Shown here one piece after another: positions 292-23,039 of a DNA stretch of 25,315 nucleotides. Source of the stretch: a virus. Location: positions 1-25,315 of IMG/VR virus record IMGVR_UViG_3300050033_000060. One strand, 5' to 3'. The notes below the pieces were generated by a model. That model was given only the letters and a program-made list of their open reading frames with translations, did not search any database and had not been told where the DNA came from. Each line of letters opens with the position of its first letter. Positions within the stretch are counted from its first letter, which is position 1. The position numbers and the translations under genes are program-made.

Positions 292-615
292 ATGAACAAC
301 GATCTTTTTGACAACCTTGACGGAGAAACCCTGGTGGTCACCACGCCTCCCGCCGCAGTTGCAGCCCCCAAGGAGCGCCGGTACGACATCATCATCGATG
401 AGGTTGAAGGACTTCCCGGTTTCGAGTACGTCGGGGTGAACGGCGAGGGTTTCCAGATCAAGCGCGGCGAGCCGGTGTCCGTCCCGGAGAAAGTCATCAA
501 CGCGCTGAAGAACGCGATCACCGTCGCGTATCGGAAAGTCCCCGATCCCCGTGACGGGTCGCGGAACATCCTCGTACCGTACAACCGTTCCACCATCCCC
601 TGGAGACTCGCGTAA
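292..615 (+). CDS. Conserved phage structural-region protein, 107 aa, unknown function
   Basis: A complete 107-aa frame starts at ATG with an AAAGGA-type ribosome site upstream. The N-terminal 35 residues are low-complexity (Pro/Ala/Val). A compact domain with the phrase DEVEGLPGFEYVGVNGEGF follows, then basic and hydrophobic segments ending PYNRSTIPWRLA. No enzyme motif or membrane segment is present. It sits between the acidic coiled-coil protein and the adaptor-like gene, so a head or connector accessory role is likely, but this rests on position only. Its TAA overlaps the ATG of the next gene by one base (TAATG), which suggests translational coupling. Confidence 0.75.
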   Translation: MNNDLFDNLDGETLVVTTPPAAVAAPKERRYDIIIDEVEGLPGFEYVGVNGEGFQIKRGEPVSVPEKVINALKNAITVAYRKVPDPRDGSRNILVPYNRSTIPWRLA

Positions 616-1283
616 TGACTCGCGTCGAACTTCTCGATGAATTGCGCGAAAAGTTGTCGGACACCCGGCGCCCTTACGCGTGGTCGGATACCCGACTGCT
701 CCGCATGATGGCGGACGGGGAAGATCGATTCTGCGAGGAGACCGGCTACTTCACGGACAACACCGCCTACACGATCACGACCACCGGCGGCGAAGCGCAC
801 TACCTGCTTCCGAGCGACCGGATCATCGAAGTGCTGGAGATATGGGACGGCGCGCACAAGCTGCGCAACTTCACCGAATTGGATCGTTCGCAGTATTACA
901 ACCTCCCGGCGATGCCGTGGAAACGCCCCATCGCTTGGCAGGTCGACCAGCAGACGGGGACGATCTCGCTTCTGGAGTTACCCCTTGACGGGTTGGTCCT
1001 CACGCTCAGGGTCCACAGGAGGGCGGCAAAACGCCTTGACCACAAGGTCGGCCCGAGCTATGATGTCGCGTCCCCGAGTATCCCCGTACAATGCCACCTG
1101 GCACTCGTGGAGTACGCTGCGGCCGAGGCTCTGCTGGATCACGACAAAGAGCTGCAGGACCCGGTGAAATCCAAGACTCATGCAGATCGTTTCAATGCCT
1201 ACCTCCACCAGGGACGTAAGCTGTTCACCCGGATCAACGGAGCTTCGATGCAGATTACCCCGGCGCAGCAGTACGTGGTTTAG
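615..1283 (+). CDS. Putative head-tail adaptor (connector) protein
   Basis: This 222-aa protein begins MTRVELLDELREKLSDTRRP. An acidic helical segment follows (WSDTRLLRMMADGEDRFCEETGYF), then a beta-rich middle (YTITTTGGEAHYLLPSDRIIEVLEIW) and a C-terminal helix with Tyr/Ala/Glu (LVEYAAAEALL, then a KTHADRFNAYLHQGRKLF segment). This layout, N-terminal helices carrying a DxxLLxMxxxGE motif and a small beta domain, is typical of podoviral and siphoviral adaptor proteins that ring the portal. It sits directly after the head-region genes and before tail genes, as expected. The start overlaps the preceding stop by one base. The assignment is by fold-like pattern and synteny, not a definitive motif. 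Confidence 0.6.
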   Translation: MTRVELLDELREKLSDTRRPYAWSDTRLLRMMADGEDRFCEETGYFTDNTAYTITTTGGEAHYLLPSDRIIEVLEIWDGAHKLRNFTELDRSQYYNLPAMPWKRPIAWQVDQQTGTISLLELPLDGLVLTLRVHRRAAKRLDHKVGPSYDVASPSIPVQCHLALVEYAAAEALLDHDKELQDPVKSKTHADRFNAYLHQGRKLFTRINGASMQITPAQQYVV

Positions 1284-7164: not shown

Positions 7165-9006
7165 ATGTCCCAAGCATCTGATATAGTCACCCAAGCAATT
7201 GCGAACTCGGCAGACTTACTTTCCCGCGCGGAATCCGCTGCGACTGATCTTATTGCTTTCGCGAAATATACGGATAACTTCAACATAACTACGGGAGCTG
7301 TTACATCCGTCGGCGGTGGGGGTTTTGATCCCACCAACAAGTACCCCGATGTGGGTATCCTCCAGAGTACCCTAAACACGCTTCATTTTGGGGATGTTCC
7401 TGCAGTCATAAATGCCCCGGACATCACCTACGCCATCGGCCCCCCGCCGTCGGCCTATGACGGGGCTGCTCCGGAGACCGATGTCGGGACCGCGCCGACG
7501 CTCGCCGATCTCCCGGACATCGCCTCGTTTGTGGGCGACTACCAACCGCAGTTCGCGAGTCCTCCGGATGCCCCCCAGGTCACGCTCCCGGATGCACCGC
7601 AGTTCGCCGAGATTACGATCCCAGATGTCCCGAGTGTCAACCTACCGGTGCTCTCCGTGGTGCGCCCTGAGCTGGACCTCCCGATTCTGAACTCCCCCGA
7701 GATCAGTAGTTACTATGGGTTCAGCACCGAGACGGGTCGGGTCTACCAGTCGCTCACTCTCGATGCCGTGCAGGCTCAGCTGCTCTCGGATATCCAGACC
7801 GGCGGCCTTGGGATCGCGAAGCCTGTGCAGGACGCGATCTTCAATGAAGGGACCGAGCGTGATCTCCTTATCCTGAATGACGCCATCGCCGCTCTGGAGG
7901 ACGAGTATTCGCGCAAGAATTTCCCCTCCCCTCCAGGTGCCCTGCGGAAAGCCACCGAGGATTTAATCGGAAAATTCGCAGCCTCCCGGTCGGACACCGG
8001 GCGGAAGATCATCGCGTCGAGCGCAGAACTCGCGCAGAAGAACACGCAGTTCGCGGTCGATAGTCTGCTCAAGTCGGAGGAGATGCATATCCACTTCGCG
8101 ACTGCCTTCGCCGACAGGATGCTCTCTGTTGCGAAAGCCACGACTGATGCAGCGATCTCCTACTTCAATGTGCAGGTCGGCCGGTTCAATGCACAGCTCG
8201 ACCTCTACAAGTCCGATGTCGCTGTCTATGAGGCGAAACTCCGGGGGGAAACACAGAAGTTGGAGGTGTTCAAGTCCGGGCTGGAGGCGGCGAAGCTCCG
8301 CGGCGATCTGAACCTCCAACAACTCTCGGAGTATCGGGAGCGTGTTGCAGCCGTCTCAGTGGCGTACCAGCTTTACAGTGCTCAGATCAACAACTACAGC
8401 GTACAGGTAGGCGCCGAGAAAACGAAACTCGATTTCTATCGGACCAAGGCTGAGATCGCCCAGGCGATGGTGCAGGTCAAGGGTCTGGAGATGAACGCCT
8501 TCGAGGCGAAGGTGCGGGGGGCACAGACTGAGGTATCTCTTTACCAGGCCAAGATCGCTGCGGGCAACTCGAAGATCGAGGGCTTTAAGGCCGGGGTCGA
8601 TGCCCAGGCGAAACAGGCAGAGCTGAAGATTGGGATCGCGCGGGAATATAACGAGCGATACGGCCAGCAAGTCGCAGCGTTCAAAGCGCAGACAGAGAGT
8701 TTGACTTCCCGATATGCTGCGCAAACCTCCACGTACAACGCGCAACTGTCGGGGTATGCGGAACTCATGCGAGCTACCGCGGAGTCGGACCGGGTCTCCA
8801 TAGCCGTCGCGAATCTCCAGCAAGGTTACTGGAAAGCCAACGCAGATATGACGATCGCCAAGGCCCAGGTACTCAGTGCCCACATACTCGGGGTGGCCCA
8901 TTTGCAGGAGTCCGCGACAGCCGGGGCACTCGGCGCCTATGCTACAATGGCTCAGGGCGCGATGAGCGCAGTTACGGCCATAGCCCAGGTCACATCAACC
9001 ACGTAG
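7165..9006 (+). CDS. Large coiled-coil virion protein, 613 aa
   Basis: The start ATG has AGGAG seven bases upstream. Residues 1-60 are helical. Residues ~85-175 are a Pro/Asp-rich extended linker with repeated PDxP units (LPDAPQFAEITIPDVPSVNLPVLSV is the core). Residues ~290-600 are a long Ala/Gln/Lys/Glu helix with heptad-like spacing and repeated QVGAxxxK, KVRGAQTEV, KLRGETQKLEV and YQAKIAAGNSKIEGF segments. This is a classic elongated phage structural protein, perhaps a tail-tip, needle or internal scaffold component. No hydrolase motif is visible. The first ~80 codons share the AT-rich composition of the preceding gene, while the rest is GC-rich. A promoter for the next genes lies just after its stop. 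Confidence 0.7.
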   Translation: MSQASDIVTQAIANSADLLSRAESAATDLIAFAKYTDNFNITTGAVTSVGGGGFDPTNKYPDVGILQSTLNTLHFGDVPAVINAPDITYAIGPPPSAYDGAAPETDVGTAPTLADLPDIASFVGDYQPQFASPPDAPQVTLPDAPQFAEITIPDVPSVNLPVLSVVRPELDLPILNSPEISSYYGFSTETGRVYQSLTLDAVQAQLLSDIQTGGLGIAKPVQDAIFNEGTERDLLILNDAIAALEDEYSRKNFPSPPGALRKATEDLIGKFAASRSDTGRKIIASSAELAQKNTQFAVDSLLKSEEMHIHFATAFADRMLSVAKATTDAAISYFNVQVGRFNAQLDLYKSDVAVYEAKLRGETQKLEVFKSGLEAAKLRGDLNLQQLSEYRERVAAVSVAYQLYSAQINNYSVQVGAEKTKLDFYRTKAEIAQAMVQVKGLEMNAFEAKVRGAQTEVSLYQAKIAAGNSKIEGFKAGVDAQAKQAELKIGIAREYNERYGQQVAAFKAQTESLTSRYAAQTSTYNAQLSGYAELMRATAESDRVSIAVANLQQGYWKANADMTIAKAQVLSAHILGVAHLQESATAGALGAYATMAQGAMSAVTAIAQVTSTT

Positions 9007-9067: not shown

Positions 9068-10552
9068 ATGGCTCTCGACGATATCATCAACGCGGTTCGG
9101 AACGGTCTGCAAAGTTCCCCCTTCGCGGGGATGCTCAGCGGCGGCAATCCGCCGGAACCCGATCTGACAGCCCCCCGGCCGATCAACACCGGCGGGGTTC
9201 TGCGGCCGATGCCCGCGCGGAACATTGCCCCTGTTGATCCCAATACGCAGAAATATTCAATGGCCCCCGCGCGCGGGGAAGCTGATTTTAACCGAGGCGC
9301 CCGCAACATGGCGAACGGCATCCAGTCGATGTTCCCTGCCGGGAACAATCCCTACGAAACCGATCCCTCCAAGATCGCTCAGGCGTCAGGACCGATGACG
9401 GGCAGTATGCTCGAAGCTCCGCTTAACTACGGCGCGGCGCTCCTGCGCGCTGGCGCGGGCGCAGTTGGGAACTTTATGGGCCGGTTCGCTAATGACCCTG
9501 GTTTTGGGGTCACCCCCCCGAACACGATCTCCGCGCATACTCCGTCGATGGGGGCACCACTTCCCCAAGCGGCCCCGGCAACGCTCCCAGCACCGGTCGA
9601 TCAATCATATACGCCCCCCGTCGCTGCCCCGGTAGTTCGTGGCGGGTTCCGCCCCCCGGTCGCCGCCGCTCCTGCTCCCGCGGCCCCGCCGCCCTCCAGT
9701 GGCTATGTTGAGGTGCTTGGAGATAATGGGCAAGTTACCCAGCACACAGACTTGCCGGCGTACCAGAACTCGGTCTACACCCAAGGCGCTCGGATGATGG
9801 GTGACAGCGGAGGGGGAACTGGTCAGATCACCCCCGACATGATCGCGGCAGCACACGCGCGCGCGGAAAACACCTATGGTATGGCCGAGGCTCAGGCGGC
9901 TCGCCGGTACGCCGCCGGCCTCGAACGAGCGTACAATGCCCAGCAAACAGGTATCCTCAACCAGGCAACCGTTCAGCAGACCGGGGCCAACGTGGGGCGT
10001 TTGAACGCCGAGACGAACCAGATCAACTGGCACATGTCCCCCGAGGGGATCGCGGCGGCTCGTGAGTCCGAAGCACTGAAGCAAGGGTATGAGACCAACC
10101 GGGCGCTTGGTGTCGCAGGTCTCCGGGAAGAGGCGATGAACAACCGCACCAACGAGATCGCGGACAAAGAGACGCGCTTGGCGCAGGTCGAGGACGCCAA
10201 AACCTTTGCGGCCAAGAACGGCGTTGACTTCAATACCGCTTTAGCCGCAGTCCAAAACAACTGGCAACCGGTGAAATCCACGATGATGCCCAATTTCTTA
10301 GGGGGGCACAGCAAGGGTTTCCAGACTCCCGAGGGCGATTATGTTGCCACTGCGGATGCACCGGCACAGTTGCGGGGTGCCCAGCGAACCGGTGCTCTTC
10401 GTACTGGCGCGGGCGCGGCTCCTGCAGGTGCTCAGCGTGCTGGGACACGGGTTGTGCCCAAAAATCAAACCGCGCAATACAAAGGCCACACGATCACCTC
10501 CGACGGGCAGGGTCATTGGTTTGACGAGCAGGGCAAAGAAGTCACGGAGTAA
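9068..10552 (+). CDS. Ala/Pro-rich internal virion-type protein, 494 aa
   Basis: The frame starts at ATG with AGGAG six bases upstream and directly follows a strong promoter. Residues 1-190 are low-complexity and Pro/Ala/Gly-rich with repeated PAAPAPAAPPP-type runs. Residues ~255-400 form a helical, Ala/Gln/Glu-rich region (ARAENTYGMAEAQAARRYAA, NAQQTGILNQATVQQTGANV, REEAMNNRTNEIADKETRLA). The C-terminus ends in a short GHTITSDGQGHWFDEQG motif common at the ends of phage proteins of this kind. The next gene begins four bases after the stop codon, so the pair is probably translated together. A role as an ejected internal or core protein is inferred from position and composition. No enzyme motif is found. 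Confidence 0.65.
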   Translation: MALDDIINAVRNGLQSSPFAGMLSGGNPPEPDLTAPRPINTGGVLRPMPARNIAPVDPNTQKYSMAPARGEADFNRGARNMANGIQSMFPAGNNPYETDPSKIAQASGPMTGSMLEAPLNYGAALLRAGAGAVGNFMGRFANDPGFGVTPPNTISAHTPSMGAPLPQAAPATLPAPVDQSYTPPVAAPVVRGGFRPPVAAAPAPAAPPPSSGYVEVLGDNGQVTQHTDLPAYQNSVYTQGARMMGDSGGGTGQITPDMIAAAHARAENTYGMAEAQAARRYAAGLERAYNAQQTGILNQATVQQTGANVGRLNAETNQINWHMSPEGIAAARESEALKQGYETNRALGVAGLREEAMNNRTNEIADKETRLAQVEDAKTFAAKNGVDFNTALAAVQNNWQPVKSTMMPNFLGGHSKGFQTPEGDYVATADAPAQLRGAQRTGALRTGAGAAPAGAQRAGTRVVPKNQTAQYKGHTITSDGQGHWFDEQGKEVTE

Positions 10553-10555
10553 ACA

Positions 10556-13500
10556 ATGGCCGACATCTACGCAGGACTCCCCGCCGGTGCGCAGTTGACC
10601 CCCCAGGTGGCGGGTCTCCCCTCCGGGGCACAGCTTGACGCCCCCCCGGAAAAATCCTCCTTCGGCGCTGAGACCCTGAAAGCCCCTGCCCGGATCGTCG
10701 GTGGGATCGCTCAGGAGCTTGGTGAGGCAGGTCAGTTCCTCACCGGGAATCGCATCGGTGGCGGGATGCGCCATTGGGGTGAGCAGGTCCAGCAGCAGAA
10801 TGCGATGACCCCGGCTTTCCAGGCAGAGCACCCCATCCTTGCGCCTGTCGCCCAGGTGGCTGAAGGCGCGGCTAAACTGGCCCCCTACATGGTGGGCGAT
10901 GCTCTGCTCTCCGCAGTTGCTCCCGAGGTAGGTCTCCCGGCCGCTGCCGGCGTCATCGCCCGCGGTGCGCGGTTCGCTGCAGGTAAGCTCTCCACGATCG
11001 CGCTTCCCGGCGTCATGGGTGCCGCCCAGGGCCAGCAGTCCTATGAAAAGGGTGTGGCGAATGGCCTCTCCCCCGACGAGGCTCTGAAAGCCTCCTACGC
11101 CCCGGCCGCCACGACCGGCGCCGGGATGGCCCTCATGGGCCGAATGTCCAAAGCCGCGCAAGGCATCGGCGGCGCTGCGGAGTCGCTGGGTGGTCAGTTC
11201 GTTAAGCACGCCGCAGCGGATACCGGGATCATGATGGGGCAGGGGGTTGCCACCTCAGCGGCAGAGAAGTACAGTGGCACCGATGTCAACGCGAAGCCCC
11301 TCGATCAACTCAAAGACCCCAAGCAGTGGCTCAACGCGGCGCTCACCGGCGGCATGTTCGCGGGTCTCGGTGTCGGCACTGAAGCAATCAACCGTGCCGC
11401 TCTGCGCGCGCATCTTGCTTCGCTCCCGGAGTACCCGCGGGAGCAGTGGCATTCGTCCGTCGAAGGACTGGCCCAGGCGCTTCACCCGGACGATCCGGTG
11501 AAGCAGGCTCACGCCCAAGCGGGCATGCTCGACCGCCTGCAGAACGACGAACCGCCGATTGAACTTACCGATGTCGTTCCACCTGAGAAGACCGCCGATT
11601 CTGCCAAGGACTTGCAGGAGAGCTTGGTCCAGGGACTTACGGAGTCCGTCACCTCCGGGGGAGAGAAAGCCCCGCTCGACGCGCAGACCGACGCCGTAAC
11701 GACGAAGATTCTCGATGGGCTGAAAACCGAAGAACCGAAGATCGAAGTCCCTACGACTTCGCCGCATCTCGGCGGCGTAGAATCCGCTTCGCTCGATCCC
11801 AACGAGATCAGCGCAAACGTGTGGGCAAAGCAGGGTTACACCACGTGGGCAAAGGGCAAAGAACCGAACCCGGAAGCTGTGGCGATCCTCGCCGAGGGCA
11901 TCGGGCCCGACAAGAAGAAATTCCGAATCGTGCCGGATGGCGAAGAACGCGCCAATGGCCGAACACTGGAGCGCGGGAGGATTGAACCCCTTGAAGAACC
12001 TATCGCCGTACATCCCCAGGAAGCCGGAGGGCAAAATGAAACAGTTCAAGAAGCCGGGGGGATTCCGGCAGCAGAAACCGAAGGACGACCCGAGCAAGCT
12101 CCCGAGTCTGACCGCCTCGCTCCCGGAAACACTGAAACTCCAGGAGATGGACAAGCAGCAGTATCCCAAACCCCAGCAGAAGAAGTAGGGCCGAAGACCG
12201 CCGAGGTGAAGATGTTCCTCACCAAGGCAGATGAAAAAGCCCTGCGCGGCCTTGGGCACACGCCGGCCGAGATCAAGAAGATGACGCCCGAAGAGGGGGC
12301 ACAGAAACTCGCCGCCGGGGTGCCGGTCACCGACCGGGCGGCCGAGAACATCAAGCTCGCGAAAGCCGGCTATAAGGGCCGCGAGATTTCCGCTATGAGT
12401 GATACCGATCGTGACGCAGCTCTGCGCCAGATCGAGGCAAAAGCCTCGGTAACCGCGAAAGAGGCAGAACCCCTCACCGCTGAACGCGTAAAGAAATCTT
12501 TCCCCGGTCAGGACGTTCGGGAAACCCCCGAGGGCCACGAGGTCACTGCGGAGAACGGCACCAAGATTCGGATCACCATGACTGGCGAGATCGAATTCGA
12601 CCGGGCCGCAGTGGAGGCTGCTCATGGCCGCCCCCTGGAGGAAGGCGAGAAGCCGGTGGCGTCTTTCGTGAAGATGGGGAAAGAAGGGGTGATCTCCCTT
12701 ACTGAGAAAGGCGTGGGGGAGCTGGACCACGAGACTTTCCATGCTGCGGTAGCTCTGGCGCTCTCCAAGAAGCAGATCGAACAGGTCTTCAAGAAGTACG
12801 GGTCCGAAGAAAACGCAGCCAAGGCCTATCAGGATTTCCGCGACGGCGCTGCGCCGGCTACCGGGTGGTGGAACCGGATCAAGGAGCTGGCACTGAAACT
12901 CCGCGATCTAGTGATGCCGAACGCCGATACCGTGTTCAGGAAACTCACCAGTGGCGAGGTGTGGAAACAGAAGCAGGGCGAAGGCGGGGACGCACTGCGG
13001 CGGTTTATGGTCGCTGCGTGGCATGGCTCCCCCCACGACCACGATAAGTTCGACTCCACCAAGATTGGTACTGGCGAAGGTGGTGCGATGTTCGGGAAGG
13101 GTCATTACTTCGCAGGGGCAAAAGCTGTCGCTGAGCATTATCGGGACGCGCTTTCCGCAGGGCATGTGCCCGACTTTGAGGGGCTTGTTGAGAAAGCGGG
13201 TATTGACTGGCCGAAAGGGGCTGATTCGTTCGATACCAAGCGCGAAGTAATGCTTCAGTCGAACGCTGGAGATTCCGCCGAGCAGGCAGCGAAGCGCGTG
13301 CAGAACGCTAACCGCGCCGCGCGGGAGATTCCCGCCGAAAAGCTAGCCGAGTTAGTTACCGCGTTCCGAGAGGCACGAAAAGGAAAGCTCTACCAAGTAG
13401 AACTCGCACCAGAAGAACATGAGTATCTGAACTGGGACAAACCTCTTAGCGAGCAACCGGAAGTACTGGATAAGTTGGCAAACGGGCTGAGCGGGGAGCA

Positions 13501-16500
13501 ACTGACCGCAGCCAACTTGCGAGACACCGACACAGGCGGCGAAGTCTATCGCCGTTTGGTGCAAGTGGAGGGTAGCAAAGAGGCTGCGTCCGAGCTTCTG
13601 CGTTCACTCGGGATAAAGGGGAATAAGTACCTTGACGAGCAGAGTCGGGACAACACTGCCAAAGTGACACGCATCTGGGAGAATGAAAAATATCCAGAGC
13701 GCCCTCAGTGGCGAGTATCGTCTCAATCTGGATACAGCGAGTCGTTCAAGTCCGAAGCGGAGGCTTCGCGCGCCGCCGAAAAGCAAAACGCGGATAACCT
13801 CACCCACAACTACGTCATCTTCGATGACAAGGACGTGAAGATCGTAGCCAAGTTCTCCCTCGGTCGCCCCGAGGAGCAGCGCGAAGCGGTCAACGAAGCT
13901 GGGAAGAAATTCTTCAACTCAGACGACTTCACCCACATCATGGAGCGCGTCGGCACCAAGGCTCTGAGGTTCATCCAGGCCGTCGACCGGACCATCGTTA
14001 TGGCGTCGAAAGCGGCATGGGCGCGGCCAATCAAAGAGCATCTGGTGAATGTTCTGCGAGTCCGTGGGGACAAGCAGGCGTATATCCGCCAGCACGCCGA
14101 TGATGCTGTGCGTATCCAGTCCGCGCTCCAGAAAAACTTCAAAAGCGATGCCGATTTTCAGAAAGGGGCGAATCTCATCTACCGGATGACACTTTACCAA
14201 CTCGATCCCTTCCACCCCGCGAAGTCCCTCGACGAGCAGTGGAACGGGCCGAAGGCGGACGAGATCGCCGCCGCGCGCGAGCGCATGAAGATGGCCGATT
14301 TTACCAAGCTCCCCCCGTCCGAGCGTGATGCACTGAAAGCAACGGCGAACTCACAGGCGTGGACGCCGATCGGTGACTCTGCATACGCCCGGGCGAAGAC
14401 CATCGAGGCGGCTCGCGCAGAGATCAAGCAGCACCTCGCCGCGCTCTCCCCTGAGCAGCGGGATGGCGTCAAGCAGATGTTCGCTCAGATCGGGAAGGTA
14501 CATGACGAGCACATCGACGCCGTGCTGAAGCAGTTGGAAATCCGCACCGGCAAGGACTCGAAAGCGTACAAAGACCTCAAGCAGGAGCTTGAGACCCAGG
14601 CACGGCTCGCCGCCTACTTCCCGCTCTCCCGCCACGGCTATGAGTACATGGTGCGCACCTTCGCCCCCGGCGAGGACGGCAAGCGGGGCCAGCTCATCAA
14701 CGCCGAGGCATACAGGACTGAGGCCCAGGCTATTGAAGCTCGGGCGAAGCTGGCCGGCAAGGACAGCACCATCGAGAAGGCACCGCTGAACAAAGGGAAC
14801 AGCCCGACTAACATCCCGTCGTCGGTGCTTGCCAAGCTAGACGCCATCGCGGCGAAGCACGGCCTTGAAGGCAGCGAGCTGGAGGCGATGAAGGGCGATC
14901 TTGAAAAGCTGTGGGTGAACACCCTGAGCCGGGGCAGCATCCAAGGGTCCAAGTTGGAGCGCACCGGGGTTGCCGGCTTCTCCACAGACTGGATGCGGAC
15001 TTACGCCGAACACATGGCGAAGGAAGCCCGCGCGACGGCGCACGCGAAATACGATTGGCAGTTCGCCGACCAGTACAAAGTCATGAGGCAGAAGATCGAC
15101 GCCCTGCAAGCCCCCGGCGTGAATCACGACTCAGCGGCGTTGCTTAAGATGCAGGACATGACTGACTATCTGGAGAGTCAGGACCAGAAGCTCCAAGCCC
15201 AGCAGCAGACTGCGGTGCCTGTGCGCATGGCGAATCGCCTCGCCTTCATGACGATGCTCACCAGTCCGACCATGTGGATTGCCCACTTGGCGCAACCGAT
15301 CCAGTTCACCCTCCCGAAGCTCGCCGCGAAGTTCGGCCCTGGTGCTGCCTTGGAGTCGCACTACCAGTTCATGAAGAACTGGATGAGCGGCAAGTATGCG
15401 GATCATAAACTGGAGGCGTGGGACGCGGAGAACGGGCAAGTCGGGCACAAGGTTGCCGGTATGCTCTCCGATCTGCACTCGATCGACATAGAGACCTCGC
15501 GGCGGCTGGAGACCGCGGGGCACATTTCCGCTCAAGGCGTTGCTGCTGAAGCAGCGAAGATCGAGAACATCACTCCCGAGCAACGGGTGTTGCTGGAGCA
15601 GAAAGCCGCAGAGCAGTTGGTTGTCGATCGCGCACAGATACCCAAAGATGCTATTGACCAGAAGAAGTCGCTCAACGACCAGCTCCACGAAATTTATACA
15701 AAGTTCGACCAGACCGGCCGAGAATATTTGACCCTTCGGGTCGGGGCGATGGTGGGGACCACCGAACTCTCAGCGCCGTTCGACCTCCACGACGCTGCGA
15801 TCGGAGCGACGAAGCTGGATGACATCTCCAACAAGCTTACGCACACCGCAGGGTTCTTCCTGCGGAAAGGGGTTTCCGGGGCGCGTAAGGCAGCGGCGAC
15901 CGCAGCGATGGACCTTGCGTTCAAAGACGCGAAATTCCATACCGACGGAAAGTTCGACTTCGCGAAAGCCTTCGACTACATGGCGAAGGACATCGTGGAT
16001 GACACGCTTTACAACTACGACCCGAGCAACCGCCCCGCATTCATGAACACCAACGCTGGGAAGCTCATGTTCCAGTTCCAGTTCTTCCGGTTTCAGACCA
16101 TCGGCAAAGTGATCCAGCTCTCGATGGACGCCTACGGTAAGGAGTTCGCCCGCAACGTGGCGGCGGCCGAAGCCGAACATGCCCAGAACGTCGACATCTT
16201 CGGCAAGGATCACGCAGATAAGGTGCTGGCCGACGAGAAGACCCGGCTCACTACAGAGCGCCATCAAGCTCGCGCAGAGCTGGCTTACATGACTGCTTCA
16301 GGAATGGCCTTGGCCGGCGCTGCCGGCGCCCCCATTGCCATGGCTGTCAACAACAGCGCCGTCGCTGCGGTTTACAATGCGATCGCTTGGCTCTTCGAGG
16401 ACAAGGACGATCCGTGGCATTTTGGGGAGGATGTTTCACGCGGGCTGCACGCGGGGCTTGGGGACAACTTGGCGAATGTTTTGGAGAAAGGGTTGCCCTC

Positions 16501-17140
16501 AATCATCGGCCTCGATCTTTCCCAGCGACTTGGTGTGGGGGAAGCCTACGCGATCAACGGGGAACCCCCAGAGGGGATGACGGCCGGCGAACGGAGTGCA
16601 TGGTATGCCAACAAGATTCTCGGACCCGCATGGTCGATGGTAGGCGATTGGAGAAAGGCCGGGGATGCGATCTCAGAAGGAAACACCGGGGACGCCGTGA
16701 AGTACACCTCGCCGAACTTCGTGCGCAATTTCATCAAGGCCAACGATCTCAGCAACGGGGGCGTCAAGGTTGCCGGCAAAACGGTCATGCAGCCCGAAGA
16801 CGTGAGTATGTATGACATTGCGCTCCAGATGGCCGGGATCAACCCCTTGGACGTATCCTTGGCGAAAGAGGAGAGCCAATACCTGAAGAACATCTCCACG
16901 GAGCTTTCACAGCGGAGGTCACTGCTCATCCGGCATCTGGCCGAAGCCACGAGTGATGGGGACCAGGACGCGAAGGAGCGGGCGATAGAGAAAATCAACG
17001 CCTTCTCCACCACGCAACCCTCATTGAAGATCACCTCTCAGGAGTTGGCGAACGCAGTGAAGAAAGCACGGAGTAAGGCGGCGGGAACGTTGACGAAGAA
17101 AGAGCAGGCGATCAAGGCTGAGTACGGGGCCGAAGAGTAG
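10556..17140 (+). CDS. Giant polyvalent virion protein with zincin and ADP-ribosyltransferase-like domains
   Basis: The 2194-aa product starts at ATG with GGAG six bases upstream. Residues ~1-290 are hydrophobic and Gly/Ala-rich, as in DNA-ejection or membrane-inserting proteins. Residues ~290-560 are acidic linkers. H725-E-T-F-H729 is a perfect HExxH zinc-protease motif in GELDHETFHAAVALA. Residues ~820-1095 match the ADP-ribosyltransferase domain known from phage polyvalent proteins: WHGSP at 822-826, GTGEGGAMFGKGHYFA at 838-853, then LYQVELAPEEHEYLNW and NYVIFDDKD near 1085. Helical regions follow, and the C-terminal ~350 residues (FRFQTIGKVIQLSMDAYG, then LPSIIGLDLSQRLGVGEA) resemble large polyvalent-protein-associated domains of the LPD38 kind, from memory. 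Such proteins are thought to be injected with the DNA and act on host targets. Host substrate and activity are unknown. Confidence 0.8.
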   Translation: MADIYAGLPAGAQLTPQVAGLPSGAQLDAPPEKSSFGAETLKAPARIVGGIAQELGEAGQFLTGNRIGGGMRHWGEQVQQQNAMTPAFQAEHPILAPVAQVAEGAAKLAPYMVGDALLSAVAPEVGLPAAAGVIARGARFAAGKLSTIALPGVMGAAQGQQSYEKGVANGLSPDEALKASYAPAATTGAGMALMGRMSKAAQGIGGAAESLGGQFVKHAAADTGIMMGQGVATSAAEKYSGTDVNAKPLDQLKDPKQWLNAALTGGMFAGLGVGTEAINRAALRAHLASLPEYPREQWHSSVEGLAQALHPDDPVKQAHAQAGMLDRLQNDEPPIELTDVVPPEKTADSAKDLQESLVQGLTESVTSGGEKAPLDAQTDAVTTKILDGLKTEEPKIEVPTTSPHLGGVESASLDPNEISANVWAKQGYTTWAKGKEPNPEAVAILAEGIGPDKKKFRIVPDGEERANGRTLERGRIEPLEEPIAVHPQEAGGQNETVQEAGGIPAAETEGRPEQAPESDRLAPGNTETPGDGQAAVSQTPAEEVGPKTAEVKMFLTKADEKALRGLGHTPAEIKKMTPEEGAQKLAAGVPVTDRAAENIKLAKAGYKGREISAMSDTDRDAALRQIEAKASVTAKEAEPLTAERVKKSFPGQDVRETPEGHEVTAENGTKIRITMTGEIEFDRAAVEAAHGRPLEEGEKPVASFVKMGKEGVISLTEKGVGELDHETFHAAVALALSKKQIEQVFKKYGSEENAAKAYQDFRDGAAPATGWWNRIKELALKLRDLVMPNADTVFRKLTSGEVWKQKQGEGGDALRRFMVAAWHGSPHDHDKFDSTKIGTGEGGAMFGKGHYFAGAKAVAEHYRDALSAGHVPDFEGLVEKAGIDWPKGADSFDTKREVMLQSNAGDSAEQAAKRVQNANRAAREIPAEKLAELVTAFREARKGKLYQVELAPEEHEYLNWDKPLSEQPEVLDKLANGLSGEQLTAANLRDTDTGGEVYRRLVQVEGSKEAASELLRSLGIKGNKYLDEQSRDNTAKVTRIWENEKYPERPQWRVSSQSGYSESFKSEAEASRAAEKQNADNLTHNYVIFDDKDVKIVAKFSLGRPEEQREAVNEAGKKFFNSDDFTHIMERVGTKALRFIQAVDRTIVMASKAAWARPIKEHLVNVLRVRGDKQAYIRQHADDAVRIQSALQKNFKSDADFQKGANLIYRMTLYQLDPFHPAKSLDEQWNGPKADEIAAARERMKMADFTKLPPSERDALKATANSQAWTPIGDSAYARAKTIEAARAEIKQHLAALSPEQRDGVKQMFAQIGKVHDEHIDAVLKQLEIRTGKDSKAYKDLKQELETQARLAAYFPLSRHGYEYMVRTFAPGEDGKRGQLINAEAYRTEAQAIEARAKLAGKDSTIEKAPLNKGNSPTNIPSSVLAKLDAIAAKHGLEGSELEAMKGDLEKLWVNTLSRGSIQGSKLERTGVAGFSTDWMRTYAEHMAKEARATAHAKYDWQFADQYKVMRQKIDALQAPGVNHDSAALLKMQDMTDYLESQDQKLQAQQQTAVPVRMANRLAFMTMLTSPTMWIAHLAQPIQFTLPKLAAKFGPGAALESHYQFMKNWMSGKYADHKLEAWDAENGQVGHKVAGMLSDLHSIDIETSRRLETAGHISAQGVAAEAAKIENITPEQRVLLEQKAAEQLVVDRAQIPKDAIDQKKSLNDQLHEIYTKFDQTGREYLTLRVGAMVGTTELSAPFDLHDAAIGATKLDDISNKLTHTAGFFLRKGVSGARKAAATAAMDLAFKDAKFHTDGKFDFAKAFDYMAKDIVDDTLYNYDPSNRPAFMNTNAGKLMFQFQFFRFQTIGKVIQLSMDAYGKEFARNVAAAEAEHAQNVDIFGKDHADKVLADEKTRLTTERHQARAELAYMTASGMALAGAAGAPIAMAVNNSAVAAVYNAIAWLFEDKDDPWHFGEDVSRGLHAGLGDNLANVLEKGLPSIIGLDLSQRLGVGEAYAINGEPPEGMTAGERSAWYANKILGPAWSMVGDWRKAGDAISEGNTGDAVKYTSPNFVRNFIKANDLSNGGVKVAGKTVMQPEDVSMYDIALQMAGINPLDVSLAKEESQYLKNISTELSQRRSLLIRHLAEATSDGDQDAKERAIEKINAFSTTQPSLKITSQELANAVKKARSKAAGTLTKKEQAIKAEYGAEE
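12026..12030 (+). promoter_or_regulatory. Ribosome binding site inside the polyvalent gene
   Basis: GGAGG ends five bases before an ATG at 12036 in the +1 frame. The spacing is optimal, which is unusual inside a long coding region and is the main reason to consider the embedded ORF that follows. Confidence 0.45.
12036..12188 (+). CDS. Candidate embedded ORF, 50-aa basic protein overprinting the polyvalent linker
   Basis: In the +1 frame relative to the 2194-aa gene, an ATG with a GGAGG site five bases upstream opens a 50-codon frame ending at TAG 12186-12188. The product is rich in Lys, Gln and Pro (MKQFKKPGGFRQQKPKDD at the start, KQQYPKPQQKK at the end) and strongly basic. The main frame here is a low-complexity linker (QEAGGQNETVQEAGGIPAAE), so it is not under tight structural constraint and could tolerate overprinting. 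It could also be a chance ORF in GC-rich DNA. No family is recognised. Confidence 0.3.
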   Translation: MKQFKKPGGFRQQKPKDDPSKLPSLTASLPETLKLQEMDKQQYPKPQQKK

Positions 17141-17155
17141 CCCCGGAAAAATATA

Positions 17156-17195
17156 ACCCCGCCGCAGAGCCAGACGATTCTGGATGCGGCGGGGT
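17156..17195 (-). terminator. Intrinsic terminator for the leftward operon (possibly bidirectional)
   Basis: ACCCCGCCGCA pairs with TGCGGCGGGGT (17156-17166 with 17185-17195), an 11-bp perfect stem, and an inner CCAG/CTGG pair lies in the loop. Read leftward it is followed by TATATTTTT, so it suits the operon that ends with the bacterioferritin. Read rightward there is no T-run, so it would only weakly stop late transcription. Confidence 0.7.
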
Positions 17196-17338: not shown

Positions 17339-17806
17339 CTATTCCTCCATCTGTTCTGCCAGATACCCCGGCAATTTGATGTCGCCGATCTCGCGTTGTG
17401 CCGACTCGATATCGTTGATGTGGTTCTCCTCTTCCGCCAAGTTCGCCTCGGCGATCATGCGCGTGCCGTTGTCGCCGATCTGGATGCAGAGTTTGACAAT
17501 CTCGTTGTAAGCGGCGCGGGCCTCCATCTCGCCCTTCAGATCTTGGCTCATCATCTCGGGGACCGTAGCACCGGTGAACGCCGGCACCTGAGCGACAGCT
17601 GGCACGCCATCGAGAAAGAGGATGCGATCCTGGAGTTTGTCGGCGTGTCCCATTTCCTGTTTCGCACGGGCCATCATGTAGCCGGCCAGCTTGTCATAGC
17701 CCCAGTTGGCGACCGTCGCTGCGTGGACGGTGTACTGGATGATCGCGCCGTACTCCCGCGCGAGTTGTTTGTTCAGTAAGTCAATGATTCTCTGGTCACC
17801 TTTCAT
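17339..17806 (-). CDS. bfr: Bacterioferritin
   Basis: The product is 155 residues from ATG 17806, chosen because AAGGAGGG lies six to seven bases upstream and because it gives the normal bacterioferritin N-terminus (MKGDQRIIDLLNKQL). A longer start at 17857 adds 17 unrelated residues. All diiron ferroxidase ligands are visible: E18, E51, H54, E93, E126 and H129, matching E. coli Bfr E18/E51/H54/E94/E127/H130. The haem-ligating Met52 in QEMGHAD is also present. Bacterioferritins form 24-subunit shells that oxidise Fe(II) and store Fe(III) and bind haem between subunits. Its ATG overlaps the TGA of the upstream 54-aa gene (ATGA), so it is translated with a phage operon. This is rare cargo for a phage. 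It could store iron or protect DNA, but this is inference. Confidence 0.93.
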   Translation of the reverse strand: MKGDQRIIDLLNKQLAREYGAIIQYTVHAATVANWGYDKLAGYMMARAKQEMGHADKLQDRILFLDGVPAVAQVPAFTGATVPEMMSQDLKGEMEARAAYNEIVKLCIQIGDNGTRMIAEANLAEEENHINDIESAQREIGDIKLPGYLAEQMEE

Positions 17807-17967
17807 TTTGTACCCTCCTTCAGGTAGAATTTCTTCAGCCACGGGCAGAATGGACAAACGAGTCGCCCCGTCTCGACAGGCCTACATGGTGCCGCGCGGC
17901 ACCCTTCTTGGTAGAGTTTCAGCATCTCTGCCTTGGTGCGCTTCGGGGTACGGGCGGGATCAGCCAC
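17803..17967 (-). CDS. Small four-cysteine protein, 54 aa
   Basis: A GTG start at 17967 overlaps the DUF3310 stop by eight bases and has GGGAG ten bases upstream. The product carries C23, C28, C38 and C41 (CRAAPC, then VCPFCPW), a pattern suited to binding one zinc or an iron-sulphur centre, with a basic N-terminal helix (ARTPKRTKAEMLKLYQEG). A longer ATG start at 18036 would overlap the neighbouring gene by 77 bases and is less likely. The stop overlaps the bacterioferritin start as ATGA, which supports a real, translated gene. No family is recognised, and function is unknown. Proximity to bacterioferritin invites a metal-related guess only. Confidence 0.65.
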   Translation of the reverse strand: MADPARTPKRTKAEMLKLYQEGCRAAPCRPVETGRLVCPFCPWLKKFYLKEGTK

Positions 17968-18218: not shown

Positions 18219-18638
18219 CTAAACCTCCGTCCAACTGAAATACTCGATCCGCTCATCGAGGCAAAGCTGCAACAATTTCTCTACGTTTCGAGCGCAGGCG
18301 TAACGCCCGAAAGCCTCATCAACCCTAGACAGTAAAACCTTCTCACTCTCCGTCGTTCGGCACCCGACCACCTCGTCGCTGAAGACAGAGAACACCGTCA
18401 CCCGCCAGTCCTTCCCAGAAAAATGCCCCCTGCGATCCCAGAGAAAGTCGGGGAGCCATACACCGGTTTCCTCAAAGAATTCCCGGCTCATCGCGGCGTA
18501 ATCTTCCTCCTTTCCCTCTATCTTGCCGCCGACGCCGTTCAGCAGACCGATGTTCACTTGTGGCCCGCGCTCCTTGCGAATGAGGACCACCCGCTCTCTT
18601 GCCTTGTCGAAGGCGAAACCCAGCACGTAATTTATCAT
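18219..18638 (-). CDS. Nudix hydrolase
   Basis: The 139-aa protein has a full Nudix box: G38-x5-E44-x7-R52-E53-F54-x-E56-E57-x-G59 in GGKIEGKEED...MSREFFEETGV, which coordinates metal ions for hydrolysis of nucleoside diphosphates linked to another group. The N-terminal strand (MINYVLGFAFDKARERVVL) is typical, and no membrane segment is present. The ATG at 18638 overlaps the upstream stop as ATGA. Its substrate cannot be read from sequence. Phage Nudix enzymes act on oxidised or modified nucleotides, capped RNA or ADP-ribose. The presence of an ADP-ribosyltransferase-like domain in the same phage makes ADP-ribose a possible substrate, but this is inference. Confidence 0.92.
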   Translation of the reverse strand: MINYVLGFAFDKARERVVLIRKERGPQVNIGLLNGVGGKIEGKEEDYAAMSREFFEETGVWLPDFLWDRRGHFSGKDWRVTVFSVFSDEVVGCRTTESEKVLLSRVDEAFGRYACARNVEKLLQLCLDERIEYFSWTEV

Positions 18639-18856: not shown

Positions 18857-18966
18857 TTCTTCACCTCCGGTAGCGGCCACCAGCCGGGACAGGCGGTGCC
18901 GCACAGTCCACATGTCCCTTCGCACATTTTCTCCCCGGTTCGTTTACAGCGGAAACAGGAACTCAT
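18853..18966 (-). CDS. Tiny six-cysteine peptide, 37 aa
   Basis: ATG 18966 has a GGGAGG site seven bases upstream. The peptide contains C4, C7, C15, C19, C22 and C26 (SCFRCKRTGEKMC, CGLCGTACPGWW), with two CxxC pairs. Its ATG overlaps the stop of the overlapping ORF at 18963 (ATGA), and its TGA overlaps the GTG of the next gene (GTGA), so it fits the operon exactly. Six cysteines in 37 residues could hold one or two zinc ions or an iron-sulphur cluster. No family is recognised. The start, ribosome site and stop-start coupling make a real gene likely despite its size. Confidence 0.7.
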   Translation of the reverse strand: MSSCFRCKRTGEKMCEGTCGLCGTACPGWWPLPEVKK

Positions 18967-20159
18967 AATAAATCCTCCCAAAGTCCCTGCTCCCGAGCGC
19001 AGTCGCTCGGGAGCATCAAGTCGCCTTTACTGCCTCGTTGGTTCGGTCCTCCGTGTTCAGCATCCGATGCCCGGATCGTGGGCCAGTCTTTTACGCTTCC
19101 GACTTGGTGGCTCAAGCTTGCGAAGCACCCCTCTGATCTATCCCCCATCCTAGCCACGAAGTTAGGGTCTGAAGCGATCTCAGTTACCCGAGGCGTGAGC
19201 CTTTGGCTCACGCCTGAGTCTTTCATAAAGCACTCGCCAAGCTCGCTCGGCGGTTGCCGGGACGACTCCGTTTCCGAGCAGTCGCAGTTCATCGACTCGG
19301 GAGTCGCAGGATTCAAACAGCTCGGCATTGTCCATCCGATCGGGAGTCCCATGAGAGTCTCGACCCACCTCGGAGAAAGTTTTCCCGCTGAAGGTGCGGC
19401 TTGGCTCCCACCAGTGCTGAGGCTCGCCGGGTCTTGAGGGCCAGAAGCGAGGTGAACCATTGTCCCGAGCGGCGGCGAGTTCCTCGCCGCCTGGCTCCCG
19501 CCCTCCATGTTCTTGGACTCGTTGACGCTGATTGTGGGCCACATCAAGACCTGAGAAACCAGAGCGGGAGAGGAACTCTCCCGCTCTGCGGGGCAATCCT
19601 CTGAGAGCTTCGCCTTCGGGGTCTGCCAAGCCTCGCCTTTGAGCGAGGATAAACACCCGTTTTCGCTGGTGAGGCGCGCCGACTTCAGCCGCGCTGAATA
19701 CTCCCCACGTTGTTCTGTAACCATCTTCTTCCAGATCGCTGAGGACTGTGGAGAGTCCCATCGAGATGTGCCCATCGACGTTTTCGAAGAAGCAGAACTC
19801 AGGCTGCATGAGTGCGATCTGCTCTCGGACAAAAGGCCAGAGATGCCGGGGGTCGTCGGCTCCGAGCCGCTTCCCCGCTGCAGAGAAGGGCTGGCAGGGA
19901 TACCCAGCCACAAGGATGCCCACTTTGCCGCGAAACGCTCGGCCAGGAAAGGTTTTAAGATTCGTCCAGATAGGTGCTGGGTCCAAGAGTCCCGCTTCCA
20001 TTTTTGCGACCAAGTTCGCGCAGGCGAAGGCTTCGATCTCACTAAAAGCGATGACGCGCAAATTTCGGATTGCTCGTCTAAGTCCGAGATGAATCCCGGC
20101 ATAACCTGCACAGAATTCCACGACATTAACGGGTGAACCGTCTTCGGTATGATCCACAT
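18963..20159 (-). CDS. Long ORF overprinting the methyltransferase, 398 aa
   Basis: Starting at ATG 20159, directly after the primase stop, a frame offset by +1 from the methyltransferase stays open for 398 codons and ends at TGA 18965-18963, overlapping the ATG of the six-Cys peptide. It shares the GGAGG at 20169-20173 (nine-base spacing). The product is Ser/Trp/Cys/Pro-rich, with motif-like strings WPTISVNESKN, SPRWVETLMGLPIGWTMPSC and WPTIRASDAEHGGPNQRGSK. I recall similar WPTP and WVEWLMGFPIGW strings in predicted proteins beside phage methyltransferases, but these may themselves be alternate-frame translations. The last 217 bases have no other coding frame, so at least this part is hard to explain otherwise. 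It may be a real overlapping gene, a frameshift product of the methyltransferase, or a shadow ORF. Confidence 0.45.
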   Translation of the reverse strand: MWIIPKTVHPLMSWNSVQVMPGFISDLDEQSEICASSLLVRSKPSPARTWSQKWKRDSWTQHLSGRILKPFLAERFAAKWASLWLGIPASPSLQRGSGSEPTTPGISGLLSESRSHSCSLSSASSKTSMGTSRWDSPQSSAIWKKMVTEQRGEYSARLKSARLTSENGCLSSLKGEAWQTPKAKLSEDCPAERESSSPALVSQVLMWPTISVNESKNMEGGSQAARNSPPLGTMVHLASGPQDPASLSTGGSQAAPSAGKLSPRWVETLMGLPIGWTMPSCLNPATPESMNCDCSETESSRQPPSELGECFMKDSGVSQRLTPRVTEIASDPNFVARMGDRSEGCFASLSHQVGSVKDWPTIRASDAEHGGPNQRGSKGDLMLPSDCAREQGLWEDLL

Positions 20160-20163
20160 TCAC
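19180..20163 (-). CDS. dcm: DNA (cytosine-5-)-methyltransferase
   Basis: From GTG 20163 (GGAGG five bases upstream, GTGA overlap with the primase stop) the 327-aa enzyme has the ordered C5-methyltransferase motifs. Motif I is FCAGYAGIHLG at 17-27 (AdoMet binding). Motif IV is GYPCQPFS with catalytic Cys90. Motif VI is FFENV with Glu127. Motif VIII is GAPHQRKR at 162-169. Motif X is LLGNGVVP at about 295-302. The target-recognition region between VIII and X is short and charged, so the target sequence cannot be read. Such phage enzymes usually shield phage DNA from host restriction or mark it for packaging or regulation. No cognate restriction gene is nearby, so it is an orphan type. A GTG at 20157 is another possible start; the ATG at 20391 would overrun the primase. 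Confidence 0.93.
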   Translation of the reverse strand: MNVDHTEDGSPVNVVEFCAGYAGIHLGLRRAIRNLRVIAFSEIEAFACANLVAKMEAGLLDPAPIWTNLKTFPGRAFRGKVGILVAGYPCQPFSAAGKRLGADDPRHLWPFVREQIALMQPEFCFFENVDGHISMGLSTVLSDLEEDGYRTTWGVFSAAEVGAPHQRKRVFILAQRRGLADPEGEALRGLPRRAGEFLSRSGFSGLDVAHNQRQRVQEHGGREPGGEELAAARDNGSPRFWPSRPGEPQHWWEPSRTFSGKTFSEVGRDSHGTPDRMDNAELFESCDSRVDELRLLGNGVVPATAERAWRVLYERLRREPKAHASGN

Positions 20164-23039
20164 TTCACCCTCCGCAAGCCCTCGATAGGCTCTGCCATCA
20201 TCGGCACGATCTTCGCCGCGACCCGGCCGAGCGCCGGCATGGACAAGTCGATTTCCCAGCAGGGGACCGACGACCCTGCATAATGTGTCCCGGCGCCCAG
20301 GACTTTCCGTCGATCGGTGGAGACGAGCGCACCCACAGATATGAGATAATTTTTGAGCGCCGTATAGGAGGCGAAGTTTTTCGCGAGCCATCCGCGCAGC
20401 TCTTGCCGACTGATAAACAGCTTGTTCTCCTCCCAGTAAACCCGGCCGTTGATCGCCCCCCTCGGCTCCTTGAGCATCACCACCATGCCACTGGTGAGGT
20501 CGCGCCCGGTTACCAAGATGCCGCTGGCGTTGTGGTCGAGGAATTGCCCGAGGAGATCGAGGTCGCTGGCGACGAGATCGTTCTTCGTCTCGCGCTGCCC
20601 GCGGATCAGATCGACAATCCAGTTAATCAAGCTCCCGATGTTCATCTCAATCAGCCCGAGCTTCTTCGCGATCAGCCCCCCGTAGATAGTGACCGCCGCC
20701 GCCGCGATCCAGAACCGCTCGGCCTGCAGCGCGTCGGTGCGGCGTTCAAGCTCGGCGATCAGGATGCGGAGCTTTTCAGCGTGCTCGGTCTGGTGGTCGA
20801 CAAGGTACTGGATGTAGATCGGACCCGCCTGGCCGTAGTGGCAGGTTACAGCATTGTGAATTTCGGCCCAGGTTGCACTACCAAGGGTACTCGTGGTGGG
20901 GATGGTGAGTTCCATGATGCGGTTCAATTCCGCCGAGGAGTCTGTTTTGAGGGCTGCGAGCTTGTCGGTGAGGGGATGGTTAGAGCTAACCACCGCAAGG
21001 GTGTTCCAGCTTGTCCTACCGCCGCGCTCGGCGCCCGTCTGTGTGAGCCGATTGCGGTCTTTGCCTTGTGTCACCCGGTAGACAAGATCGGACAGCGCCT
21101 CCGGGGTCATGTTACTCACCTCATCGATGTACGCCGGCAGGCTCCCATAAATGCCGAGCCGCGATATCACGGATGCCGCAGTGTCGTCTTTCTGGAGTAC
21201 GAGGTCGCTCGGTTTCCCATAAGTGGAAAGCCCCCAGCTCCCTGTCATCGTCTTACCGAGCCCGGTCGCCCCTACCATCGCGATCAGCGCCCCGGAGTGC
21301 CCCGTGAAGCGCATGAGCGGCGCACCGAACGCCTCGGCGGCGAATGAGAACGCCAAGCTCTCCATGCCGGGGGCCGACAGGTGCCGGGTCGAGGCTTTCC
21401 ACGTTTCGAGATTCCCTTTCTGACAGAACGCCGCGACGGCGGCCGAGGCCATCTTAGACATGCCACCCTTCACAGGCTCCTCGTTTGCCCGGTAAATCTG
21501 ATCGCCCAGGACGAAGGACAGGTCGCCCGTCTCAGGGTGCTCGGTCCACCCCATCTGCGTGTAGATATCATTCATGCGCACGGTGGCTCGGAGTTGTGCC
21601 ATGTACTCGCCCATGTAGGTCATCATGTGTTTCCTCGAATCGTTCCCTTGGACTTGGACATGCTCGTCGGCCATCGCCGTCAGAAAATCGACAGGCTTTA
21701 GCAGTAAAGCTGAGCGGACATTGAATTCGTGGTATAATCCAGTTACCGGCAAACGATGCCGGATCGTGACCACCTCATAACCCTTGCTGTGGTCCATGCC
21801 AAGCGAGACCGGATAAAGGTCTTCGGGGTAGAACCGCTCAGGCACCCCGCCGAAGTCGATAAAAAGGCCGTCTTCCGTGCGCAGGAAACCTTGGGGTAGG
21901 CTCCTTTGTTCCTCTTCGGTGATGGTTGCGACGAGTTCTGCATCCGGGTAACCCAAGACGATCGGTGACTTGATCTTCCCGGCGTGGGGGCACCCAACGC
22001 ATAGGGTCGCGTCGTCAGCTCCGATCTTTTGGCAGGTAGTCGGCCCGACGCCCGACGCCTTGTGGTGCTCCAGCTTCTCTTCCGTCGCTGCCGGGGAGTA
22101 GTCGGGGTGCCCGCTGCTCCACTCCTGCACAACGTCGTCGCCCTCTTCGCAGTGGCGCAGGACGCCGAGGAGGTCATACCAGACGGGTTCGGCAATGTTC
22201 CCGAGGGTATCCCGCATCACGCGAGCAGCGCGGCATTTATCAGCAACCTTGTGCGCCGAGGAGGGGGGGTGATTATCGCCGATCCCGGAGGCGAACGCGT
22301 CGTTAAGACCCTTGAACTCCTTTGGGGCGATCAACCCTTGCAGTGGTATTTTGACTCGTGCTGAGGCGGCAGTAACCGCAGCAGTGAATGCGCTGAACGA
22401 GGTGTTCGGGGCGTCGAAAATAATCCGGGTGAGTTTCGGATTCAGCGGGTCTTTACGGTTATGAACACCCATCGGCCGCAGGACCGACGCATTATCCGCC
22501 GTGCGCACCGGGTCGATCTCGAATTTGTGATGCTTTGCAAGGGCTTTTAGTTTTTGCCCGACGACTTTCCAACGCTGGGGGTCAATGGCTTCGTCCAGAA
22601 CCCAGTGAACGTAAAGCCCATTCCCCGATGACTCCACGAGGGGGGGAGGGAGCAGGGTGTCCTTTAGGAATTTTTTCAGGGCTACAACCCCGGCAACCTG
22701 CGTCGGGAACGGTTTTCCAGGGCCGCAGTCAATGTCCATAAAAAAGGAACGGAGCGCCACAGTATTGAGCTGGGAGCGCCGCGGTTTATAGTCGGCTGAC
22801 TTTGGGGGAAGCGTTCGGTTAAATTCTTCAGCAGCTCGGACGAGAGCTTTGTCGAAGGCGGCTTGGGCAACAAAAACCGTAACTTCCGCGTCGTCCAGAG
22901 CGTGGAGGTGGCGGTGTAGCTCCGCTATCCGCTCGAAAAACCTTTGGACTTTTGCTCCATTTTTGAGGAGGTGGACGGCACAATATAGGCTGTCTCCAGT
23001 CGCAGATTCGGCGGGCAGGACTCGACGCAGGTAGTCCAA
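20160..23039 (-). CDS. Primase-helicase (AEP-like primase plus DUF927-type helicase domain)
   Basis: The N-terminal half resembles an archaeo-eukaryotic-type primase: FFMDIDCG at D102/D104 (DxD metal ligands), ESSGNGLYVHWVLDE, then TADNASVLRPMGVHNRK. A short Cys/His cluster (CQKIGADDATLCVGCPH, about residues 336-350) may bind zinc. The C-terminal half is a DUF927-like ATPase: GATGLGKT with Lys596 (Walker A), PAYIDEVS with Asp639 (Walker B) and a VVSSNHP sensor. A winged-helix-like tail (NKLFISRQELRGWLAKNF) ends the protein. Priming and unwinding at the fork are the likely roles. TTG 23039 is chosen as start for its GGAGG six bases upstream and the family-like DYLRRVLPAE N-terminus; GTG 23099 (no visible SD) gives 979 aa. 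The stop overlaps the methyltransferase start. Confidence 0.88.
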   Translation of the reverse strand: MDYLRRVLPAESATGDSLYCAVHLLKNGAKVQRFFERIAELHRHLHALDDAEVTVFVAQAAFDKALVRAAEEFNRTLPPKSADYKPRRSQLNTVALRSFFMDIDCGPGKPFPTQVAGVVALKKFLKDTLLPPPLVESSGNGLYVHWVLDEAIDPQRWKVVGQKLKALAKHHKFEIDPVRTADNASVLRPMGVHNRKDPLNPKLTRIIFDAPNTSFSAFTAAVTAASARVKIPLQGLIAPKEFKGLNDAFASGIGDNHPPSSAHKVADKCRAARVMRDTLGNIAEPVWYDLLGVLRHCEEGDDVVQEWSSGHPDYSPAATEEKLEHHKASGVGPTTCQKIGADDATLCVGCPHAGKIKSPIVLGYPDAELVATITEEEQRSLPQGFLRTEDGLFIDFGGVPERFYPEDLYPVSLGMDHSKGYEVVTIRHRLPVTGLYHEFNVRSALLLKPVDFLTAMADEHVQVQGNDSRKHMMTYMGEYMAQLRATVRMNDIYTQMGWTEHPETGDLSFVLGDQIYRANEEPVKGGMSKMASAAVAAFCQKGNLETWKASTRHLSAPGMESLAFSFAAEAFGAPLMRFTGHSGALIAMVGATGLGKTMTGSWGLSTYGKPSDLVLQKDDTAASVISRLGIYGSLPAYIDEVSNMTPEALSDLVYRVTQGKDRNRLTQTGAERGGRTSWNTLAVVSSNHPLTDKLAALKTDSSAELNRIMELTIPTTSTLGSATWAEIHNAVTCHYGQAGPIYIQYLVDHQTEHAEKLRILIAELERRTDALQAERFWIAAAAVTIYGGLIAKKLGLIEMNIGSLINWIVDLIRGQRETKNDLVASDLDLLGQFLDHNASGILVTGRDLTSGMVVMLKEPRGAINGRVYWEENKLFISRQELRGWLAKNFASYTALKNYLISVGALVSTDRRKVLGAGTHYAGSSVPCWEIDLSMPALGRVAAKIVPMMAEPIEGLRRVK
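20169..20173 (-). promoter_or_regulatory. Shared ribosome binding site for two overlapping starts
   Basis: GGAGG at the 3' end of the primase gene is five bases from the GTG of the methyltransferase (20163) and nine bases from the ATG of the overlapping ORF (20159). Both spacings are functional, so one site could serve both frames. Confidence 0.6.

Follow-up and report, generated by a model that had tools for sequence, protein, structure and literature searches.

The window, a 25,315-base IMG/VR record that is probably a fragment, encodes a 2194-aa protein which, on its sequence, belongs to the polyvalent proteins of the PLxRFG type. In it, a probable zincin-like metallopeptidase is followed by a well-supported ADP-ribosyltransferase (ART) domain, and the protein's closest relative found, in contig L092, retains the zincin region but not the ART. 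The combination of zincin and ART in phage polyvalent proteins has already been published (Iyer et al. 2017, PMC5512222), and the arrangement itself is therefore known; the absence of the ART alongside retention of the zincin is the part worth following.

A giant gene at the end of the structural operon

The ORF lies at 10556-17140 on the plus strand. As read from the sequence, it starts with ATG, is preceded by a purine-rich, ribosome-binding-like GGAG, and is separated from the stop of the preceding gene by a gap of 3 bp. The frame, its length and the motifs HETFH (residues 725-729) and HGSP (823-826) were all found where an earlier note on this DNA had placed them. Directly 3′ of the stop, a 10-bp GC hairpin (17157..17194, +) is a candidate for the end of the late operon; it was read from the sequence, has no T-run and is absent from the hairpin scanner's listing. 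Peptide patterns found no whole-protein relatives in IMG/VR, and neither the whole protein nor the ART profile nor the scaffold had a credible sequence match in the PDB.

The giant gene is the final member of a plus-strand run of structural genes, and the presence in the same run of an SU10-type head-tail adaptor (615..1283, +; PF24175, 50.9 bits against a cut-off of 27) places it in the structural operon. The run also encodes a head-closure-like protein (phrog_8040), a 1078-aa protein with BNR/sortilin repeats (3125-6361, +), a 613-aa structural protein two genes 5′ of the giant (phrog_10969; 7165..9006, +) and, directly 5′ of the giant, a 494-aa protein (9068..10552, +), 46 residues of which, near its end, are weakly like a 720-aa protein of phage Epa33 (E 0.001). 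The ORF of the 1078-aa protein overlaps the next one (6226-7155) by 136 bases. The 613-aa protein served as a synteny anchor: F116-like Pseudomonas phages and podovirus ctwe8250 encode relatives of it, again with a giant gene two or three genes downstream. The giants at the corresponding place in phages Epa33 and 8P are annotated 'structural protein', and that of Epa33 matches Pfam LPD23 and LPD3 and scores 786 bits against NF032893. The window's 979-aa primase/helicase-like neighbour has counterparts at 40-45% identity in the environmental contigs L077, L021 and L019, and the giants of these three each carry an HExxH motif, an ART and the scaffold. A polyvalent protein occupies the corresponding place in relatives, and gene order supports late expression of the giant gene, together with the structural genes.

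Several genes beyond the operon deserve mention in their own right. Just past it lies a bacterioferritin-like gene (17339-17857, −; TIGR00754, 106.5 bits, below the cut-off of 125.55), which is present in few phage records and stands at the same place in L092, with DNA 83% identical. A NUDIX hydrolase gene (18219-18638, −; PF00293, 32.4 bits), also near the ART-bearing gene, could bear on ADP-ribose metabolism. In and beside a C5-cytosine methyltransferase gene, a 534-base block (window 19008-19541, L092 5751-6284) is 97.4% identical, with flanks at 79-83%, possibly reflecting a recent exchange. The methyltransferase locus has two long overlapping frames (19180-20391, −, and 18963-20159, −), both open in L092 too. 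A frameshift here was rejected: the 403-aa frame, which carries the Dcm match, is uninterrupted, and the second one is merely open, in a way that looks mechanical.

Domains of the 2194-aa protein

The C-terminal half (residues 1110-2194, 1085 aa; 13883..17137, +) is a helical PLxRFG scaffold, matching NCBIfam NF032893 ('PLxRFG domain-containing protein') at 239.2 bits against a curated cut-off of 100. The motif itself appears in a variant form, PLSRHG (1356-1361; 14621..14638, +), with F replaced by H, as in L092; its other fixed letters (P, L, R, G) do not vary in A3. A four-sequence scaffold profile matched the giant of Serratia phage Parlo (E 7e-78). The scaffold model (pTM 0.72) is almost entirely helical; searched against viral models it gave 47 matches at E<0.001, and it resembles phage giants, several of them named 'large polyvalent protein associated' (best TM 0.58/0.62). 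In PHROGs the scaffold is called 'DarB-like'. The 47 matches also include 'Internal virion protein D' of Roseobacter phages CRP-4 and CRP-5, a weak and partial likeness (E about 1e-5, TM about 0.3), and a PDB fold search, which covers the families listed there, returned nothing above background. Polyvalent proteins are large phage proteins recognized by having at least two functional domains that are unrelated to each other, and here these are the ART and the scaffold, together with the probable zincin.

Residues 816-1102 (13001..13861, +) form an ART domain of the H-Y-D type in a long variant. They match three phage proteins (E 4e-11 to 3e-25, 28-35% identity), and of the first 600 IMG/VR stretches picked out by pattern, 543 encode relatives. 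The strand-1 histidine H823 (13022..13024, +) and the strand-2 tyrosine Y851 (13106..13108, +) are invariant in 61 sequences, and the strand-5 aspartate D1091 (13826..13828, +) in a four-sequence alignment; this is the residue set described for polyvalent ARTs (PMC5512222), and with the ART fold of the predicted model it fits the Tox-ART-HYD2 type. As the score against Pfam ART-PolyVal (PF18760) was 20.4 or 24.7 bits, below the gathering cut-off of 31.2 and limited to profile positions 10-55 of 140, we treat the domain as a divergent, longer variant. An AF2 model built for residues 630-1110 is confident across most of the ART part. Its top match in VIA-align was chain 9k3a_B of the cyanophage A4 pre-ejectosome (Z 11.8, 155 residues, rmsd 5.2), followed by tankyrases (about 8), MbcT (7.4), other PARPs, the anti-CRISPR 6kyf (7.0) and diphtheria toxin (6.7); Foldseek also placed 9k3a_B first (E 0.14, probability 0.95). 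The chain is the product of gene 27 of Anabaena phage A-4L and contains YHGT and GTYF motifs of its own. Sequence matches, the conserved triad and the tankyrase/PARP-type fold of the model thus bear out the earlier proposal of an ART-like domain around HGSP, and the assignment of these residues as an ADP-ribosyltransferase is well supported.

The preceding segment (residues 640-815; 12473..13000, +) is a probable zincin-like metallopeptidase. HETFH (12728..12742, +), the predicted zinc-binding and catalytic motif, is the sole HExxH in the protein; composition alone would give 0.09 in the whole protein and, for the 230 residues that precede the ART, 0.01. A candidate third zinc ligand, E752 (12809..12811, +), sits in SEENAAKAY (SEEEAAKSY in L092) and is conserved in L092. 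In the AF2 model a strand is followed by the HExxH helix and then by further helices, with E752 on the second helix after the motif; model confidence in this part is low, about 38-66 at and just past the motif. The region is under purifying selection (pN/pS 0.34). Of the 42 relatives that have space for it, 15 carry an HExxH motif 30-260 aa before the ART, where 0.24 would be expected. Pfam and NCBIfam zincin models found no match in the 2194-aa protein, and a search for zincin relatives of the HETFH type recovered only L092 again. Profile comparison (hhalign) with other zincins reached a probability of 49% at best, to one zincin class, and fell to 1% with HExxH masked, indicating that the match is mainly the motif. 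The zincin claim of the earlier note therefore keeps its motif, single in the protein, retained in the nearest relative and typical of relatives in its position, but it gains no confirmation from the profile comparison or the model. As a possible processing motif, [RK][FY]S was weakly enriched between the domains.

The weakest part of the earlier description is that of a hydrophobic, ejection-like N-terminus. Residues 86-290 (10811..11425, +) are indeed rich in Ala/Gly (37%) and mildly hydrophobic (mean hydropathy +0.22), and from composition this may be an ejection or membrane segment, but a single 19-residue stretch reaches a hydropathy of 1.63, and homology to the N-termini of other giants was not significant, with shuffled sequences scoring equally well.

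A close relative that lacks the ART

The L092 giant is 61% identical to the window protein over residues 611-814 (67% for the zincin segment 640-815) and 67% identical over the scaffold (1095-2194), and HETFH with its surroundings, including SEE(N/E)AAK, is conserved. What it lacks is residues 815-1094, exactly the ART. At the site are about 27 other residues together with a remnant of the last ART strand (its end, KI-AKFSLG), a scar which suggests that the ART was lost in L092. The upstream part of the L092 giant opens with a tandem AVAPE repeat (L092 1-150) that is absent from the window protein.

A wider set of 44 non-redundant scaffold relatives, each with more than 800 residues upstream of the scaffold, shows a similar imbalance. 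HExxH was found in 33 of them (45 motifs against 1.8 expected), and an ART of the window type in seven. With HExxH common, the ART sporadic and L092 without it, the zincin seems closer to the core machinery, and the ART appears to be exchangeable, optional cargo. The giant of another contig, L099 (4904-12526), closely resembles those of L100 and L021 and has a canonical PF18760 ART at residues 1385-1555, not one of the window type.

A tentative extension is that the stretch between zincin and scaffold is an exchangeable effector slot, where ART cassettes would come and go cleanly and the zincin would be kept as a release protease for whichever effector is loaded. This suggestion, which we regard as possible rather than probable, draws on the ART being present in the window and absent from L092, and on different ART types at different places in the L099, L100 and L021 giants.

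Proposed role and known systems

Our data are consistent with a model, which we consider reasonably probable as a whole, where the giant protein would be made late alongside the structural proteins of a short-tailed phage, packed into the head via its scaffold as the packaging and ejection part, and ejected with the DNA. The zincin, binding zinc, would process the giant protein itself, freeing parts of it in the capsid or after entry, and the ART, as optional cargo, would use NAD+ in the host to ADP-ribosylate a host protein before phage gene expression, with defence or transcription as candidate targets. Operon position and synteny with giants annotated as structural speak for a late role in which the protein is virion-associated and ejected, as does, by analogy, the ART in the A4 pre-ejectosome; the literature searched contained no mass-spectrometry evidence for the giant proteins of relatives. 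The earlier idea that both enzymes are delivered with the DNA is supported as regards a late, probably virion-associated role, but an equal status of the two as host effectors seems less likely with the zincin near the core and the ART optional.

Each element of this model has competitors. The HETFH segment could be degenerate or merely structural, leaving the ART as the sole enzyme: family models did not match, the profile score was weak, model confidence was low and a close homologue of the segment is known from one contig only. We nevertheless find this doubtful, given that L092, 67% identical here, retains both the motif and the probable third ligand, that HExxH lies upstream of the ART in relatives far above expectation, and that in the model a strand precedes the motif helix and further helices. 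If a zincin is present, it might instead be a host-directed effector protease injected beside the ART, as Iyer et al. allow for some polyvalent zincins (PMC5512222). We think this unlikely, because HExxH occurs in three-quarters of the scaffold relatives whatever other cargo they carry, a distribution more in keeping with processing than with a variable effector.

Late expression with the structural genes, as judged from gene order, would also suit an ART that acts in the producing cell or the virion, by self-modification or by blocking superinfection, and not in the newly infected cell; against this stand the ART of the same fold in the A4 pre-ejectosome and the precedent of T4 Alt, which is packaged in the head and injected (PMC5512222), and we consider such a role distinctly improbable. 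Zincin and ART domains are also found in some N4-like virion RNA polymerases (PMC5512222), but kinship of the window protein with these polymerases is hardly credible, as family-model searches gave no polymerase match and the C-terminal half is helical and of the PLxRFG type.

We return to the favoured model of a late-made, head-packed and ejected protein with a self-processing zincin and a host-acting ART, for which known systems offer several parallels. The polyvalent proteins of Iyer et al. (PMC5512222) likewise combine a zincin-like peptidase and an H-Y-D ART in a single large protein, although the ART of the window is a long variant below the PF18760 cut-off and its zincin is too divergent for current models. 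The NF032893 giants of Serratia phage Parlo and Pseudomonas phage Epa33 have a homologous C-terminal scaffold, and that of Epa33 the corresponding late-operon place; they differ in carrying methyltransferase, helicase or LPD domains and the motif PLSRFG rather than PLSRHG. Gene 27 of A-4L (9k3a_B; 1717 aa) shares an H-Y type ART fold within a podovirus virion protein and was missed by the sequence profile; the likeness seen is that of the ART fold. T4 Alt and the Dar proteins of P1 are precedents for injected head proteins (PMC5512222; PMC12810830). Alt, a late, head-packaged and injected ART, resembles our protein as a model of working, but its R-S-E active site belongs to a different ART clade from H-Y-D (PMC5512222). 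DarB and DdrB of P1 are large head proteins injected with the DNA, and DdrB, which contains a zincin, undergoes processing (PMC5512222); a helicase or methyltransferase domain was not found in the window protein.

Overall, the window protein is a further clear example of an ART that sits on a PLxRFG scaffold and is probably virion-associated, and its fold links it to an ART within a phage particle. Two close relatives, of which one has the ART and the other does not, represent a natural experiment on the role of the ART and on whether cargo is released by the zincin.
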